Shown here: one piece after another, positions 18,768-35,075 of the stretch
Position numbering within the stretch: the stretch's first letter is position 1
Layout: each line of letters starts with the position of its first letter
Assembly: GCA_009841435.1 (NCBI GenBank)
Contig: VXLW01000123.1
Coordinates: 1-60,805 of the forward strand
Direction of reading: 5' to 3'
Source: Dehalococcoidia bacterium
GTDB lineage: Bacteria > Chloroflexota > Dehalococcoidia > Tepidiformales > Tepidiformaceae
DNA length: 60,805 nt
Program-made: the position numbers and the translations under genes
The notes under the pieces: generated by a model
The model's database searches: none
What the model was told of the DNA's origin: nothing
What the model saw: only the letters and a program-made list of their open reading frames with translations

Positions 18768-19657
18768 CTACTCCGTCGTGCGGATGGCGCGGATGGCGAT
18801 GGTGAGCATGACGGCGCCGAAGACGAACACGACACCGAGCTCCTCCCACGTGCTGAGGGTGTAGCCGAACCAGTCGACGTGGGTGATCTGGAAGGGGGCG
18901 TCGGCGGGCAGCGCCTTGAGCTGCTCGGAAAGGGCGATCTCGCGGATGGGGGCAACGGCGTAGGTGACCGGGTTGAGCTTGACGATGACGTCCATCCAGG
19001 CGGGGACGTTGTTGATGGGGAAGAAGATCCCGGAGAGGAACATGGCCGGCATGATCGCGACCTGGGAGAGCATCTGGAAGCTTTCGACCGAGCGCAGGCG
19101 GCTGCCCATGGCCACCCCCAGCCCCGTGAGCATGAACGAGACGAGGGCGATGAGCCCGATGAGCTTGGCCACGATCTCGAGGGTGATGTCGATCCCGAGG
19201 ATGGGGGCCATCACGAACATGACGACGCCGTTGACGAGGGAGATGGTGGCGCCGCCTGTGATCTTCCCGATGCAGATGGCGGTGCGGCTGACCGGCGCCA
19301 CGAGGATCTCGCGGAGGAAGCCGAACTGGCGGTCGGTGACGATGGAGACCCCGGAGAAGACGGAGTTCATCAGGACGATCATGGCGACCATGCCGGGGAA
19401 GATGAACTGGCGGTAGCCGATGTCGCCGGGGAGGGTGGCGATGCTGTTCCCCAGCCCCTCGCCGAACATGACGAGCATCAGGATGGGCATGATGAAGGCG
19501 GAGATCATGCGGGGGCGGTCGCGGAAGTAGATGAGCACCTCGCGCATCCAGATCACGCGCACCACCTGCAAGAAGTTGGCGCGGCCGGTGGCGGGGCGCG
19601 GGCTGCCGGTCGCGACCTGGGCGCCGGCATCCACCGTGGCGGTGGCCTGCTCGACGG

Positions 19658-19661
<4 letters not shown>
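18768..19661 (-). CDS. ABC-2 type transporter permease
   Basis: The protein has 297 residues and about six membrane segments. The N-terminal cytoplasmic part contains VIWMREVLIYFRDRPRMI. The family segment VTDRQFGFLREILVAPVSR lies after the second helix, and IMPAMFLSGIFFPINNVP precedes the last helices. It partners the ATPase encoded immediately upstream, whose stop overlaps this start by four bases. It is probably an exporter; the substrate is unknown. Confidence 0.9.
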
Positions 19662-20692
<1,031 letters not shown>

Positions 20693-20695
20693 GGG

Positions 20696-21898
20696 CTAGC
20701 CCTCCGGCTGGAACACGTCGGTGTCGGGGAAGTAGTCGGACCAGGCGAACCAGAAGACGGCGAAGCCGTTGAGGACAGCGAGGCGGGAGCCCGCAAGCTC
20801 ACCCGAGAGCGCCTCGCCCGTGAGCACGGACCAGACGGAGCCCGTCTCGAGGTCGCGCAGCGTCTCGCCGCTGGCGTCGGGCTCATGGACCTCGAAGGTG
20901 AGGAGGCGGCCGTCGACCGTGGGGTCGTAGGCGATGGCGGCGCGTCCGACGGCGTCCCAGGCCACGAGCACGGGCTGGTTGCCGATGAGGTCGTTGACGA
21001 CGGGATGCTCGGCGAGGACGCGATGGGAGTAGGCCTTCCGCCCCTGGGGAATGACGACCCCGTGGACGAGCTCCTTGCCGAAGAGGCGGTCGTCGGGGTT
21101 GCGTTCGCCGATGACGCCCGCCTGGGGGCTGAAGTAGTAGCCGTTGTAGGCGTCCATGACGAAGCCACCCTGGTCCAGCACCTGCGTATCGGGGTGGAGC
21201 TGGCGCCAGCTCTCCCAGCTGGTGAGGACGGCGGGCACGACCTCAAGGGGCGTGCCCTTGAGCGGCCCCTCGACGGCCTCACCGAGGAACTGGCTCCAGA
21301 GGGTCTCGGTTTGCCGGTCGAACATGACGAGGGCGTTCATGATGAGCTTCCCCGACACGCCGAAGCTAAGCGTCTCTCCCTGGATGTCGCGGGCATACAC
21401 GATGCCCGTAAAGCAGAGCGGTCACCAGGTGACCGCGATGGCGCGGCCTCCCAGCGTGTCGTTCACGATTTCGTGGGCGCTGAGGAAGGCGGCTCCGTAG
21501 GCGCGGTGTTCGCCGTCGATGGAGACGCCGATGACGAGGTCGCTCAGGGCGAGCTGCCTGTCGGCCTCCTCAGCGGTGACGAAGCGGGGGTTGTCGATGG
21601 CGGGGATGGCGTCGGGCGGGAGGAGGGTGACGATCTCGAGGTCGGGGTCGCCCGGTTCGCGGGGTTCCTCCGGTGCCGCTGCCTCGGTGGCGCGGGGGGT
21701 GGAGGCTTCCGTAACCGCGGGTTCCGTGGCCGGGTCCCCGGTGGCCGTTGCAGCAGGCTCCGTGGCGGTGGCGGCGGCCTCGGTGGCAGGCGGTTCGGTG
21801 GGCGCGGAGGGAGGCTCCTCCGGGTCGGAGCCGCCGCAGGCGAGCGCCGCCAGTCCCACGACGAGCGCCGCGACGGCGGCCGCCAGCGCCCTAGCCAT
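20696..21898 (-). CDS. DUF3179 lipoprotein with in-frame TGA at the first Cys of the CPLC motif (selenoprotein candidate)
   Basis: The frame is continuous over 400 residues apart from one TGA at 21422-21424 (residue 159). Upstream are a signal peptide ending at Cys21, a linker rich in Pro, Thr, Glu and Ala, then the start of DUF3179 (AIDNPRFVTAEEADRQ and SAHEIVNDTLGGRAIAVTW). Downstream the same frame continues the domain at once: PLCFTGIVYARDIQGE, LSFGVSGKLI and DRQTETLWSQFLGEA. DUF3179 proteins, as I recall them, have W/Y-C-P-L-C here, so TGA stands exactly for the first cysteine. A hairpin fitting bacterial SECIS rules begins 13 bases later. Either the product is a selenoprotein (UPLC redox motif) or this is a TGC-to-TGA nonsense change or sequencing error. 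The gene overlaps the pheA stop by 8 bases. Confidence 0.75.
21390..21408 (-). promoter_or_regulatory. Candidate bacterial SECIS hairpin
   Basis: Read on the minus strand this is CGGGCAU-CGUGU-AUGCCCG, a perfect 7-bp stem with a 5-base loop. The stem begins 13 bases after the in-frame TGA. The second loop base is G, about 22 bases after the TGA. That meets the usual bacterial SECIS requirements: a G in the first two loop bases and an apical loop 16-37 bases downstream of UGA. Confidence 0.6.
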
Positions 21899-22712
21899 CG
21901 AACGCCCGGGGGTAGCTGCCGAACACCTTGAGCATCGTCGTCATGCCGCGGAGTCCGTCGAGGGCGGCGGCGCACTCGGGGTCGAACTCGTGGCCCTCGA
22001 AGTCGATGAGGAAGATGTACTCGCCGAAGGTGGCGCGGGTGGGGCGGCTCTCCATCTTGGTGCAGTTGATGCCGCGGCTGGAGAACTCCGTGAGGGCGGC
22101 GGTGAGGAGGCCGGCGCGGTCGCCGGCGAACTCGAAGGCGATGGAGGTGCGGTCCCGGCCCGAGGGCTCGGGCTCGTGCCGCCCAACGACGACGAAGCGG
22201 GTGGCGTTGCTGTCCTGGTCCTGGATGGCCTCGGCGAGCACGTCGGCGCGGTAGATCTCGGCGGCGCGGACCGTCGAGATGGCGGCGGCGCCCGGCTGGG
22301 CGACGGCGAGCTCGACGGCCTGCGCGGTGGAGAGCGCGGCGGCGCGCTGGGCCTCGGGGCAGTGCTGCCCGAGAAAGACGCGGCACTGTCCCAGCGCCTG
22401 CGGGTGCGAGTAGATGAGCTCGATGTCGTCGATGGCCGTGCCCGGGGCGGCGACCAAGTTGTGCACGACCGGTACGAGCACCTCGCCCTGGATCTTGAGG
22501 GCGGTCTCGTGGATGAGGATGTCGAGGGTCTCGGGGACGGAGCCGTTAAGCGAGTTCTCGATGGCCATGACGCCGGTCTCGGCCTCGCCCGCCTCGACGG
22601 CGCGGGCGACGGCGCCGTGCGTCTGGTACGGGAGCAGCTCGGAGCCGGGGAAGTGGCGCCGCGCGGCCTCCTCGCCGAAGGTGCCCGGCGGGCCCAGGAA
22701 GGCGACCTTCAC
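21891..22712 (-). CDS. pheA: Prephenate dehydratase
   Basis: This enzyme turns prephenate into phenylpyruvate in phenylalanine synthesis. The protein has 273 residues from the chosen start. The dehydratase domain shows VAFLGPPGTFGEEAA, MAIENSLNGSVPETLD, SHPQALGQC and the catalytic DSNATRFVVVG. A C-terminal ACT domain follows with RAGLLTAALTEFSSRGINCTKMESRP, including the ESRP phenylalanine-binding motif. GTG at 22712 has GGGAGGG 6 bases upstream. The longer GTG/ATG-type frame from 22745 would overlap the TrkA gene. It overlaps the DUF3179 gene. Confidence 0.94.
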   Translation of the reverse strand: MKVAFLGPPGTFGEEAARRHFPGSELLPYQTHGAVARAVEAGEAETGVMAIENSLNGSVPETLDILIHETALKIQGEVLVPVVHNLVAAPGTAIDDIELIYSHPQALGQCRVFLGQHCPEAQRAAALSTAQAVELAVAQPGAAAISTVRAAEIYRADVLAEAIQDQDSNATRFVVVGRHEPEPSGRDRTSIAFEFAGDRAGLLTAALTEFSSRGINCTKMESRPTRATFGEYIFLIDFEGHEFDPECAAALDGLRGMTTMLKVFGSYPRAFDG

Positions 22713-22728
22713 GCCGGACCCTCCCGCC

Positions 22729-23403
22729 TCAGGTGTCGAACCCATGCGCGCCCCCGATGAGCGCTTCCTGAAGCATCCCCTTGCTCTCGGCGCGGGTTAC
22801 GACGACAAGGGCGTCGCCAACGGTGAGGGTGGTATCGGCGCCGGGGACGCGGGGCACGCCGCCGGAATCGACGATGAGGGCGATAAGCGATTCGGGCGGC
22901 AGCAACACCTCGCGAGGCGTGCGTCCCACCACGGGCGAGGTCTCCGAGAGGCGCACCTCGACCAGCTCCAGCCCCTGGTGGAGCTGCATCACGGGGACCA
23001 TCGAGGTAACGGGAAGCTCCTGCTCGATCTGGGAGAGGATCGCCTCCGTGGCGGAGACGGTCGTCTCGATGCCGCGCTTCTGGAAGAGGAGCGCGTTGGT
23101 GGGATTGTTGACGCGGGCGAGGACGCGCGGCACGCCCCGGTAGCGGGCGATCTCGCAGACGACGAGGTTGTCCTCGTCGTCACCCGTGACGGCCGCGACG
23201 AGGTCGGCGCGGGCGATGCCGGCGCCGTCGAGCACGGACGCCTCGCAGGCGTCTCCCTGCTGGACGGTGCCCTCGAGCAGGTCGTTGATCTCGGCGGCGC
23301 GGGAGGCGCTGCGCTCGATGACGAGCATCTCGTGGTCGCCGCTGAGCAGCTCGCGCCCGAGGTAGTACCCGACCTTGCCGCCACCGGCGATGATGACGTA
23401 CAC
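22729..23403 (-). CDS. TrkA-type potassium uptake regulator with RCK_N and RCK_C domains
   Basis: The protein has 224 residues. An NAD-binding Rossmann motif opens it (YVIIAGGGKVGYYLG), and an acidic strand end (MLVIERS) and GDACEASVLDGAGI follow. The RCK_C part covers residues about 140-215 (LELVEVRLSETSPVVG and LTVGDALVVVT). It would gate a Trk/Ktr channel according to NAD(H) or nucleotide state. No channel gene lies in the window. It sits 3 bases after a second, shorter TrkA gene, a pairing seen in other high-GC bacteria (CeoB/CeoC type). Confidence 0.88.
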   Translation of the reverse strand: MYVIIAGGGKVGYYLGRELLSGDHEMLVIERSASRAAEINDLLEGTVQQGDACEASVLDGAGIARADLVAAVTGDDEDNLVVCEIARYRGVPRVLARVNNPTNALLFQKRGIETTVSATEAILSQIEQELPVTSMVPVMQLHQGLELVEVRLSETSPVVGRTPREVLLPPESLIALIVDSGGVPRVPGADTTLTVGDALVVVTRAESKGMLQEALIGGAHGFDT

Positions 23404-28894: not shown

Positions 28895-31504
28895 ATGGTG
28901 GAGGTCCCCGTACACAGACCCACCCAGTCGCCGGACGTCGAGGGGGTCGTTCTCTATTGTCCTGTCCGTGGCGCTCTTCGGGCAGGCGGGCTCGCAGCTG
29001 ACGGCCTGACCCCAACGGAGGAGGCGCGCCGTGTTGATTTCCTGCACTTCCTCATCGACGAGCGCAACTACCCACCAGAACACATCCGCGTTGAAGTCGT
29101 AACGATCAGGAACCTCGGAGAGAGCGGACGCAATCAACTCCGTGCAGACGTAATCGTGTATGACCGCCCATGGGTGGAAATCCAACCGGCAGCCCGCGAG
29201 CAGCAACTCGAACACGTGATTCTCGTCGCAGAAATCAAGCGGGATTCAGCGAAGAGGCGCAAGGGCGTTGTTTATCAACTCGAACCCGCCCTGCGCGTTC
29301 TTCCGCGCCTCAGCACGTTCGGCGTCTACTGGGATGACGAGAGCCGAATCCTCTTCACCAAGTCTGTCGAAGAGAAAAAGGGATACGAAGAGGTCGTCGT
29401 AGCGTCAGATTCTATCGCCAACCTCCCCGACTATGGAACGGCATACCGACACAAGCCGATCACCGTCGACACGCTTACAAAGCCCTCCAACCTCATGGCG
29501 ACCCTAAATGGCTTTGCGAACATCATGCGTTCGCACGGGATCAATGACAGCCAGCAGCGCTACAGGGAAACCGTGAAGCTGCTTCTTGCTAGGTACGTAG
29601 ACGAGAGGACGGCAAAGGTATCGAGCACCAAGCGACTGCAGATGCAGGTTCTCGGCGACATAGACTCTGGTTTCAGGGAAAGAATCGAAAACCTTTACAC
29701 CAGTGCATCGATTCGCTATAGCCGAGTTGAGACCCTCTTTTCTCCCACACCTGGTCCGGGTGTTGATGAGGATACCCTTCGCGACCTCGTTCGAGCGATA
29801 CAGGGGTTTGACTTTTCGTCTGTCTCGAGTGACACGATGCAGCAAGTCTTCATGACCTTCGTACCTGTTGTCTTCAAGAAGGACCTAAGTCAGTACTTCA
29901 CTCCCGCATCCCTCATCGAGACGATGGTTCGCATGGTGGCACCCGGCCCTACCGAAAAGATTGCGGATCCGGCAATGGGGACGGCGGACTTCTTAGCCGC
30001 AGCTATGAACTACTGTATGCAGCGCGGTGACGACGATGCTCTCGGCCGGGTCTACGGCATTGACTCCGATGCTCAGGCCTATGACTTGGCCGTCGTCAAC
30101 ATGATTTTGCACCGCGATGGGCAAGCTAATCTCAGGCGCGAAGACTCTATCGCGAACAGTCAGCGTTGGTCCGAAGAAATGGACGTTGTGGTCTGCAATC
30201 CGCCCTTCGGGGCTGGGACCGTTGAACGTCGAACGTCGGTCCTTAGCGACTACGCCCTTGGGCACGTCTGGACTCCCGGTGAACACGCCGGCGAATGGGA
30301 GGTGACTGATGACGTTGCCAAGGGGCAGCAACTGGGCATTCTCTTTATCGAGCGCTGTTGGAAGATGCTTCGCCCAGGTGGCCGAGTCGCCATCATTCTC
30401 CCCGAAGGCTATCTCTCCACCGCGAGCTATGGTTATGTCCGTCGCTGGATTCTCGACCACTTCATCATCCGGTCCCTCGTAGAACTACCGAGGCGCATCT
30501 TCGTCAAGTCTGGGGCGGACCTTCGGTCTAACATCCTCGTAGCAGAGAAGCGAGTCGAGGGTACGCAGCTCCGCCCACATCCGATCCACGCCTCTATGGT
30601 GCGCCGCGTTGGCTATAAGCTGGGTGGCGACTTCAGCCCACTGCCGGCGCGTGACCAGACAAGCGGGGTCCCAATCCGGGATAGTGCAAATCGTTTTGTT
30701 CTGGACTCAGACTTTACAAGAGTCCTCCACGAATTCGAGAACACACCACACAAAGTTACTGCAGAGTGGCGCGGAGCGACGGTTGAGGACATCTTTTCGC
30801 ACAAAGACCTAGACATGAAGCCGCGTAGATTGTCCCCACGCGCGCTCCAGAATGTCCGTAATCTAAGATCTTCCGGTGCGGTCCCGCTGGACGACATCGC
30901 GACCGTCGTTGAGGATACTGTCGACCTCATCGATGATGTTGGATCGGAATCCTTTAGGAGAGTTGTCGAAGGTCAGGATATTAGGGCGATCGAGGGTACT
31001 GTTGTTCCGCATTCCCCAGAGAGGTGTTGGTCGATCGCTGAACGGAAGAAAAGGAAATGCTATCGCCTCTTTCGGGGTGACATCATTGTTGGTCTAGTCC
31101 GGCCAGAGAGAAGAAACATAGGCATCCTGCTGGAGTCTGGCGAGGATATTGTGGGTAGCCCAGATGGACTCTCTGTAATAAGGGTCGAACCTGAAGTGTC
31201 TGAAGACTACCCAGCGGAATGGCTATTTGCGGCGTTGCGATCAGAGCAAGTCAGGCTTCAGTTGTGGACGGAATCTGGTGGGACGAGCTACGGTAAATTG
31301 GACAATGACCACATCCGGCAAGTGCTCATTCCCACTGCAACTCTGCAGGAGCGGAAGGCAATGGCCGAATCCGTTCGTTCATGGATTTCAAGTGTTCAGG
31401 CGAACATCGCAGCATGGTCACACATAGGGACCGAAGAAGATCGGCTCCCCATCTTGAACTCTCCGTTGACCGGCTTGGTTGACGACTACGAACCGGGCTC
31501 CTAA
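28895..31504 (+). CDS. Single-chain restriction-modification enzyme (nuclease + N6-adenine methylase + specificity domain)
   Basis: The protein has 869 residues. Residues about 45-120 form a PD-(D/E)xK nuclease domain of the HsdR N-terminal kind, with Asp85 (RADVIVYD) and Glu113-x-Lys115 (VAEIKRD). A helical linker follows. The gamma-type N6-adenine methylase has QYFTP at 333, DPAMGTADFL at 358 (SAM motif) and NPPF at 435. From about 625 there is one type I S-like target-recognition domain (SPRALQNVRNLRSS and ending near NDHIRQVLIP). This is the architecture of type IIG-like or fused type I systems that cut and methylate in one chain. GC is visibly lower than in its neighbours, and AGA/AGG/ATA codons appear. 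It stands alone, which suggests recent transfer. Confidence 0.82.
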   Translation: MVEVPVHRPTQSPDVEGVVLYCPVRGALRAGGLAADGLTPTEEARRVDFLHFLIDERNYPPEHIRVEVVTIRNLGESGRNQLRADVIVYDRPWVEIQPAAREQQLEHVILVAEIKRDSAKRRKGVVYQLEPALRVLPRLSTFGVYWDDESRILFTKSVEEKKGYEEVVVASDSIANLPDYGTAYRHKPITVDTLTKPSNLMATLNGFANIMRSHGINDSQQRYRETVKLLLARYVDERTAKVSSTKRLQMQVLGDIDSGFRERIENLYTSASIRYSRVETLFSPTPGPGVDEDTLRDLVRAIQGFDFSSVSSDTMQQVFMTFVPVVFKKDLSQYFTPASLIETMVRMVAPGPTEKIADPAMGTADFLAAAMNYCMQRGDDDALGRVYGIDSDAQAYDLAVVNMILHRDGQANLRREDSIANSQRWSEEMDVVVCNPPFGAGTVERRTSVLSDYALGHVWTPGEHAGEWEVTDDVAKGQQLGILFIERCWKMLRPGGRVAIILPEGYLSTASYGYVRRWILDHFIIRSLVELPRRIFVKSGADLRSNILVAEKRVEGTQLRPHPIHASMVRRVGYKLGGDFSPLPARDQTSGVPIRDSANRFVLDSDFTRVLHEFENTPHKVTAEWRGATVEDIFSHKDLDMKPRRLSPRALQNVRNLRSSGAVPLDDIATVVEDTVDLIDDVGSESFRRVVEGQDIRAIEGTVVPHSPERCWSIAERKKRKCYRLFRGDIIVGLVRPERRNIGILLESGEDIVGSPDGLSVIRVEPEVSEDYPAEWLFAALRSEQVRLQLWTESGGTSYGKLDNDHIRQVLIPTATLQERKAMAESVRSWISSVQANIAAWSHIGTEEDRLPILNSPLTGLVDDYEPGS

Positions 31505-33794: not shown

Positions 33795-35075
33795 ATGGTC
33801 CTCGAATCCGTGTCCCAGCAAACACCGACCACGAAGGCGTCCGAGCCAGTCCTCGGCACCGACCTCATCCCCAAGGAACGCTACATCTCGAAGGAGTTCA
33901 TGGACCGCGAGTGGGAGCGCATGTGGACCAAGGTCTGGAACATCGCTGGCCGCACGCAGGACATCCCCAACGTGGGGGACTACTTCACCACCGAGCTGGG
34001 GCCGGAGTCGTTCCTGATCGTGCGCGAGGCGGAGGAGAAGGTGCGGGCGTTCTACAACGTCTGCCCCCACCGCGGGAACCAGATCCGCAACGCCGGCATG
34101 GGGCATGCGGAGTCGTTCCAGTGCGCGTACCACTTCTTCGAGTTCAACCTCGACGGCTCCAAGAAGTTCGTCCCGGACGAGGACACGTTCACCCAGGGCG
34201 TTCCCCAGGAGACGGCGCTGATCGAGGTGCCCTGCGACACGTGGGGCGGCTGGGTCTGGTTCAACATGAACCCCGACGCCGAGCCCCTGATGGAATTCCT
34301 CGGAGAGATCCCCGACCACCTCAACCCCTACCACTTCGAGAAGCAGTACTTCGTCCAGGACGTCACCATCGAGTGGGACTGCAACTGGAAGACCTCCGTG
34401 GACGCCTTCAACGAGGTGTACCACGTGCAGGGCATCCACCCGCAGATCCTCGAGAACATCGATGACATCCATGTGCAGATCGACCTGTACGAGCGCCACA
34501 ACCGCTACCTGGTGCCGTTCGGGCTCCTGAGCCCGCGCTATCCGAACCAGGAGGAGTTGACGCGCGCGCTGAAGGAGATGCTGCAAGCTGCGGGCATCGA
34601 CCCGGAGACGTTCGAGGGCGGCCCGGCGGACGTGCGGCCCGCGCTCCAGGCGCAGGTGAAGAAGCACGCCGCCGACCACGGCATCGACCTGTCAGAGCTG
34701 AACGACGACCAGCTCAGCGACGACTACCACTACTACATCTTCCCGAACATCACGCTGAACACGCACCACTCGGGCGTGATGCTCTTCCGGCAGCGGCCGC
34801 ACGCGACCGACCCGAACAAGATGTACTACGACCTGCAGAACTATGTGCGCATCCCGGAGGGCTCGGACCCGCCGCCGCGCCCGGTGCACACGACGCACAA
34901 GCACGGCGAGATCTCGCTCGGGCTGGGGCTCGACCAGGACTCGTACAACCTGCCGCGCGTGCAGAAGGGGATGAATTCGCGCTCGTTCAAGGGGTTGCTG
35001 ATCAACTACCGCGAGCGCCGCATCCGCCACATGCACAAGGTCATCGACGACTACCTGGAGGGCCCGGACCGCTAG
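33795..35075 (+). CDS. Rieske non-heme iron oxygenase, large subunit (copy 1)
   Basis: The protein has 426 residues. The Rieske 2Fe-2S site is Cys90-x-His92 (CPHRGN) with Cys110-x2-His113 (CAYHFFEF). The mononuclear iron site is in NWKTSVDAFNEVYHVQGIHP, giving His about 210 and His about 215 plus a later aspartate. The sequence after the second Rieske ligand reads HFFEF instead of the common HGW-Y. The substrate is unknown; aromatic or related hydroxylation or demethylation is typical. The ferredoxin and reductase partners are not encoded nearby. It is a close paralogue of the gene at 43295, with long identical stretches. A strong terminator follows. Confidence 0.92.
   Translation: MVLESVSQQTPTTKASEPVLGTDLIPKERYISKEFMDREWERMWTKVWNIAGRTQDIPNVGDYFTTELGPESFLIVREAEEKVRAFYNVCPHRGNQIRNAGMGHAESFQCAYHFFEFNLDGSKKFVPDEDTFTQGVPQETALIEVPCDTWGGWVWFNMNPDAEPLMEFLGEIPDHLNPYHFEKQYFVQDVTIEWDCNWKTSVDAFNEVYHVQGIHPQILENIDDIHVQIDLYERHNRYLVPFGLLSPRYPNQEELTRALKEMLQAAGIDPETFEGGPADVRPALQAQVKKHAADHGIDLSELNDDQLSDDYHYYIFPNITLNTHHSGVMLFRQRPHATDPNKMYYDLQNYVRIPEGSDPPPRPVHTTHKHGEISLGLGLDQDSYNLPRVQKGMNSRSFKGLLINYRERRIRHMHKVIDDYLEGPDR

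Follow-up and report, generated by a model that had tools for sequence, protein, structure and literature searches.

A 60,805 bp stretch of DNA from a Dehalococcoidia bacterium (assembly GCA_009841435.1, contig VXLW01000123.1; hereafter the window) contains a DUF3179 gene whose reading frame is interrupted by a single TGA codon, which raises the question of whether translation ends at this codon in a decaying gene, passes through it under an altered genetic code, or continues by insertion of selenocysteine (Sec). A reading made from the sequence alone had favoured selenocysteine, and the conserved TGA, the presence of the sel genes, a fitting bacterial SECIS (bSECIS) hairpin and covariation within that hairpin support this interpretation. 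We regard it as very highly probable, from comparative sequence evidence, that selenocysteine is inserted at UGA codon 159.

The interrupted gene and its surroundings

The gene is on the minus strand, a detail absent from the sequence-only reading, and re-translation confirms the proposed 400-codon frame with its sole in-frame TGA at the first Cys position of a C-P-L-C motif (Table 1). A Pfam DUF3179 match (PF11376) runs across the TGA, from residue 96 to residue 393 and over model positions 2-292 of 292, with a score of 293.6 bits (cut-off 27). Translation table 11 splits the gene into open reading frames of 158 aa (21898-21422) and 234 aa (21400-20696), and no NCBIfam model recognised the protein. 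A putative signal sequence, read by eye, ends in ALAC at residues 18-21, Cys21 is present in all six rows of the genus alignment that cover the region, and the product is probably exported as a membrane-anchored lipoprotein.

Table 1. Coordinates of the DUF3179 gene, its elements and its neighbours in the window.
Feature	Position	Strand	Basis
Predicted DUF3179 selenoprotein gene; 400 codons counting UGA as Sec, TAG stop	20696..21898	-	Frame translation and Pfam
UGA codon, predicted Sec159, first position of U-P-L-C	21422..21424	-	Translation, homologue alignment, TGA in 8/8 genus orthologues
Putative N-terminal signal sequence with lipobox-like ALAC end and putative lipidated Cys21	21836..21898	-	Read by eye
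Candidate SECIS hairpin CGGGCAU-CGUGU-AUGCCCG, nt 14-32 after UGA; loop G at nt 22 (window 21400)	21390..21408	-	Fold, covariation
Repeat 1, about residues 112-244, with H142, E143, Sec159 and Cys162	21167..21565	-	hhalign against repeat 2
Repeat 2, about residues 268-399; U/C-P-L-C and H-E not conserved	20702..21097	-	hhalign, homologue alignment, model
Upstream neighbour, prephenate dehydratase	21891..22745	-	Context only
Downstream neighbour, ABC transporter ATPase	19658..20692	-	Context only
ABC-2 permease, after the ABC ATPase	18768-19661		Context only

The 3' end of the prephenate dehydratase gene overlaps the DUF3179 start by 8 bases, and the two genes are likely co-transcribed. Neither the neighbours of the window gene nor 10 mechanically picked open reading frames round eight related loci give a clue to function; among these eight, just two similar loci (L139 and L144) have a common neighbour, a phosphoribosyltransferase gene. 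A scan of viral contigs returned 36 pattern matches and no relative.

Among the other genes in the window we note three consecutive 316-aa luciferase-like monooxygenase genes (PF00296; 44699-47594, plus strand). Identity to the first gene is 68% for the second and 62% for the third, indicating a tandem triplication. Rieske-domain genes are located at 33936-34187 and 43436-43687 (both plus strand), and matches to PF00355 number 22 in this genome and 15-23 in the genus, whereas the other 11 genomes searched have 1-6. An 869-aa N6 DNA methylase with a restriction-type N terminus (28895-31504, plus strand; PF02384, PF13588) is likely a restriction-modification protein. The stop codons of 25 hand-picked window open reading frames, not all of which are proven genes, lean to TAG (18 TAG, 5 TGA and 2 TAA).

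Conservation of the UGA codon and the selenocysteine machinery

One explanation for the TGA is a pseudogene, in which mutation has turned a Cys codon into a stop and the sequence beyond it is decaying; a single base change makes TGA from TGC or TGT, and table 11 shows two fragments. However, TGA occupies codon 159 in all eight genus members that have an orthologue (this genome and G001-G007; another member, G008, is without one), and in all eight the aligned region reaches the expected protein end. No other stop interrupts it, further stops being what the sequence-only reading had named as a sign of decay. Selection is purifying and similar on either side of the TGA: over the 28 pairs of these orthologues the median dN/dS is 0.346 upstream (range 0.051-0.757) and 0.354 downstream (range 0.028-0.496). 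TGA is also found at the same position in many genera of several phyla, and the hairpin that follows it covaries (see below), all of which makes the pseudogene explanation extremely improbable.

Sixty genomes, this one among them, were searched and 31 yielded a match, in some cases just a weak one in the signal and linker region, and a class-wide search finds DUF3179 in at least 143 of 393 genomes. Homologues, one of which (L126) is 78% identical to the window protein, carry Cys or TGA at exactly the codon-159 column, as had been anticipated. A reported TGA led to the fetching of 24 loci, and in 23 of them it falls on the first motif Cys when the variants U-T-L-C (L104 and L106) and U-P-I-C (L109) are included; these variants indicate that the motif does not depend strictly on its Pro and Leu. 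Locus L099 (genome G365) has an intact CPLC and an in-frame TGA at an invariant Trp (W356 of the window protein), reflecting an error, decay or something else. Extra stops seen in genomes G004 and G020 (TGA) and G032 (TAG) are at protein ends and not at the CPLC site, where the codon in G020 and G032 is TGC. Two further loci each have a pair of Sec-type DUF3179 motifs close together (L127, at 5178 and 5962; L152, at 2719 and 4038), which suggests neighbouring selenoprotein genes or pieces of them.

The machinery for selenocysteine insertion, which the sequence-only reading proposed looking for, is present in this 2.7 Mb genome (89.8% complete). A tRNA-Sec scores 71.1 bits (cut-off 47) and is called as tRNA-SeC with a tca anticodon by ARAGORN, selB scores 296.9 bits (cut-off 242.25), and selA scores 478.8 bits (cut-off 267.9) with its sequence split across two contig ends; selD, at 344 bits (cut-off 125), itself carries one in-frame TGA. 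These genes bear on a second explanation, in which TGA is reassigned in this genome, for example to Trp or Cys, or is read by an ordinary suppressor. TGA is the rarer stop in the window, ending 5 of the 25 hand-picked frames, but it does terminate the Pfam-supported ABC ATPase, Usp and M16 peptidase genes, and the earlier statement that it is an ordinary stop elsewhere in the window thus holds. Moreover, TGA occurs in frame where Sec would be expected, in selD and at the Cys position of CPLC, and tRNA-Sec(tca) is accompanied by SelA, SelB and SelD; we give reassignment or suppression next to no credence.

Across the class, tRNA-Sec exceeds the cut-off in 317 of 393 genomes in a lossy scan limited to 10 scored candidates per genome, including this genome and all eight genus relatives (1e-14 to 3e-14). 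Fuller scoring of 13 genomes with a Sec-type DUF3179 gene places 10 above the cut-off and finds no tRNA-Sec above it in G062, G040 and G046 (96, 80 and 69% complete) despite their Sec-type genes, that of the nearly complete G062 being L088. Of these three, selD is over its cut-off in G040 and not in G046, with G062 outside that search.

A covarying hairpin downstream of the UGA

Directly after the UGA there is a hairpin as described in the sequence-only reading, with 13 nt of spacing, a 7 bp stem from nt 14, a loop from nt 21 and a loop G at nt 22 (Table 1). The bSECIS model, as given in section 5 of PMC13188914, has a loop of 3-9 nt, a stem of 4-16 bp, a G in the first two loop positions, 16-37 nt spacing and an energy of -7.5 kcal/mol or lower, and the window hairpin falls within each of these ranges, with a 5 nt loop that has G in its second position, a 7 bp stem, 20 nt of spacing and an energy of -9.9 kcal/mol.

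For comparison across the family, a motif script applied to 206 records yielded, after deduplication, 60 distinct UxxC and 95 distinct CxxC genes. This set is non-random, in that a TGA was the reason for fetching many of its members and the contig scan kept the best 80 of 566 relatives, and it omits seven loci in which TGA at the site was seen separately (L104, L105, L106, L108, L109, L129 and L149). The full 7 bp stem at fixed positions 14-20/26-32 is formed by 47 of the 60 Sec genes, leaving 13 without it, and by none of the 95 Cys genes; fixed-position pairing in the Sec genes amounts to 379 of 420 cells, compared with a mean of 313.6 and a maximum of 331 after shuffling. A strict scan for a hairpin at or below -7.5 kcal/mol accepts 42 of 60 Sec genes (18 fail) and also 22 of 95 Cys genes, and hairpin energy alone is therefore weakly specific.

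Covariation was assessed in an alignment of 60 rows (58 distinct) against 500 shuffles that are blind to relatedness. Paired cells make up 90.9% (75.7% shuffled), the covariation score is 0.365 (0.105 shuffled) and 45 cells are changed on both sides (8.8 shuffled), none of the 500 shuffles reaching as high for any of the three. Pairs with changes on both sides number five, a count that 54 of the 500 shuffles reach as well. Stem registers slid from this one pair at most 50.2% of cells, and the consensus fold recovers this helix, with six pairs. In all 60 Sec genes the loop position 22 nt after the UGA is G, and at sites of invariant amino acid the codons are identical at 10 of 11 positions in the 12 codons following the UGA, compared with 82 of 173 elsewhere.

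Six exceptions (L085, L022, L093, L094, L096 and L153), inspected by eye, look able to form a variant with the outer six pairs, an eight-base loop and the G third in the loop. One Cys-type gene, L201, groups with a Sec-type gene and retains the CGUGU loop together with six of the seven pairs, the pattern expected of a fossil SECIS. However, two Cys-type genes from the Cys-rich side of the tree (L181 and L111) also have six of seven pairs, with other loops.

Very probably, when the ribosome reaches the UGA at codon 159, SelB together with Sec-tRNA(Sec) recognises the hairpin just downstream, and selenocysteine is inserted in place of termination.

Family context, duplicated domain and possible function

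The novelty implied for a DUF3179 selenoprotein does not stand, as a 'DUF3179 domain-containing protein' with the motif UxxC/T is catalogued as a selenoprotein family in the available part of a 2022 compilation (PMC9312934) and again in that of a 2026 catalogue (PMC13188914). The former credits it to Zhang and Gladyshev 2007, and PMC9230427, in the portion available, enters a DUF3179 gene in a table. The window gene is a well-supported new example of this already listed family. The credited study, going by its title, reportedly concerned the deltaproteobacterial symbiont of Olavius algarvensis. The window protein shares with the catalogued proteins the Pfam family (PF11376) and the U-x-x-C motif (here U-P-L-C); the available catalogue text gives one example accession each and the credited study is deltaproteobacterial, whereas the window gene is from Chloroflexota. 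What is added here is a spread over several phyla, nine Sec/Cys changes and a tandem duplication with U-P-L-C only in the first repeat. A limited literature search, in the text available to it, found neither the duplication, the Rieske resemblance described below nor the Chloroflexota distribution of DUF3179 in print, and a search for papers on selenoproteins of Chloroflexi SAR202 returned none.

In a quick tree built from 149 proteins (Sec in 55, Cys in 94; midpoint root, long branches flagged), 48 Sec and 7 Cys proteins, the window protein among them, lie on one side and 87 Cys and 7 Sec proteins on the other. Nine Sec/Cys changes are needed, eight of them forced by well-supported branches, compared with 44.6 in shuffles. 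Sec-type rows on the Sec-rich side come from metagenome-assembled genomes assigned by their record titles to Chloroflexota, Acidobacteriota, NC10, Verrucomicrobiota, Nitrospinota, Planctomycetota and Myxococcota. Cys-type proteins have the same duplicated domain as the window protein but Cys at the Sec column, encoded by TGC or TGT, and the full stem at the SECIS position is found in 0 of 95 of their genes. This genome has three further DUF3179 genes, on contigs or loci denoted C3 (CPLC), C43 (CTLC) and C117.

The profiles of the two halves of the domain align with each other in hhalign (probability 99.9, E 1.5e-34, 30-31% identity), and DUF3179 is thus a tandem duplication of one beta domain. 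Across 48 aligned homologues, all selected by the C/U-P-L-C motif, repeat 1 has invariant Cys/Sec159, Pro160, Leu161, Cys162, Glu143 and Asn146, with His142 in 45; at the equivalent positions of repeat 2 the commonest residue is found in 29 of 48 at one (Asn302) and in at most 21 of 48 at the others. The active site, with Sec159-Pro-Leu-Cys162 and the conserved His142-Glu143, thus appears confined to repeat 1. AlphaFold models are confident over the domain, and the predicted antiparallel strands 144-149 and 152-159 would put His142 opposite Sec159. We give even chances to the DUF3179 selenoprotein being an extracytoplasmic thiol/selenol oxidoreductase, which would cycle between the selenol/thiol form and a Sec-Cys selenylsulfide.

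Structural comparison gives a weak resemblance to Rieske domains. Foldseek searches with the whole model and with repeat 1 returned no match at E of 0.001 or lower and no E below 0.01 for Rieske domains. Among the best 50 of 375 and of 245 matches, those whose probability exceeds 0.3 belong to Rieske oxygenases, Rieske ferredoxins and the small subunits of nitrite reductase, the last of these being Rieske-type as well. For Rieske [2Fe-2S] ferredoxin domains (PDB 4nbc, 3gce and 5cxm) the local probability reaches 0.99 with the whole model; with repeat 1 Rieske probabilities are 0.44-0.84, and the TM-score by target of Rieske matches is up to 0.62. Sequence searches identified no solved relative, giving four weak matches from the single protein sequence (the best, 5joq, at E 0.017 over residues 8-101, before the motif) and one from the profile (E 1.3). 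Against two Rieske alignments the repeat 2 profile scores above all 100 column shuffles with either, and that of repeat 1 is not clearly above them (6 and 2 of 100 as high), with HH probabilities of 0.8-9% for both repeats; sequence kinship with Rieske proteins is thus weakly suggested for repeat 2 only.

An H-x16-(U/C) spacing is found in all 149 motif-selected DUF3179 proteins, and x16 is the commonest ligand-motif spacing in Rieske sequences (19 of 28). The C-x-H...C-x-x-H ligands of Rieske proteins are, however, absent from DUF3179: the first Cys position is S, T, I or others and never Cys in the 149 proteins, and the last Rieske His is Cys. No ordinary Rieske cluster is predicted, as the full ligand set is missing. 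Three registers were considered: hhalign sets U-P-L-C on the first Rieske motif, in a repeat 1 alignment that is non-significant; the better-scoring repeat 2 alignment puts U-P-L-C in the preceding hairpin turn; and a third comes from the H-x16 coincidence, with no profile alignment backing it. These disagree, and we therefore claim none.

It is conceivable that DUF3179 proteins are tandem Rieske-derived beta domains that lost the iron-sulfur cluster, the ligand site of the first copy having turned into a redox site, to give a post-Rieske extracytoplasmic selenol oxidoreductase with repeated Sec/Cys switching; C-x-H-x16-C-P-x-H would then have become (S/T/I)-x-H-x16-(Sec/Cys)-P-L-Cys. Because the three registers disagree we hold this derivation to be doubtful. 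The main rival to an oxidoreductase role is metal handling, in which residues 159 (as Sec) and 162, together with His142, would bind or transfer metal and would not carry out thiol/selenol redox catalysis. The invariant Cys162 and Glu143 and near-invariant His142, in repeat 1 only, and the weak resemblance to metal-binding Rieske domains are compatible with such a role; however, the full Rieske ligand set is not conserved, and selenoproteins of known function are mostly redox proteins across the catalogue (PMC9312934, in the part available). A metal role seems to us decidedly unlikely, and the redox role is preferred.

The split of this gene under table 11, together with the lack of an NCBIfam match, indicates that exported selenoproteins of this sort are readily overlooked in uncultured Chloroflexota and in other phyla. 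The covarying SECIS, the repeated switches between Sec and Cys and the active site on one side of a duplicated domain make the function of this uncharacterised family testable.
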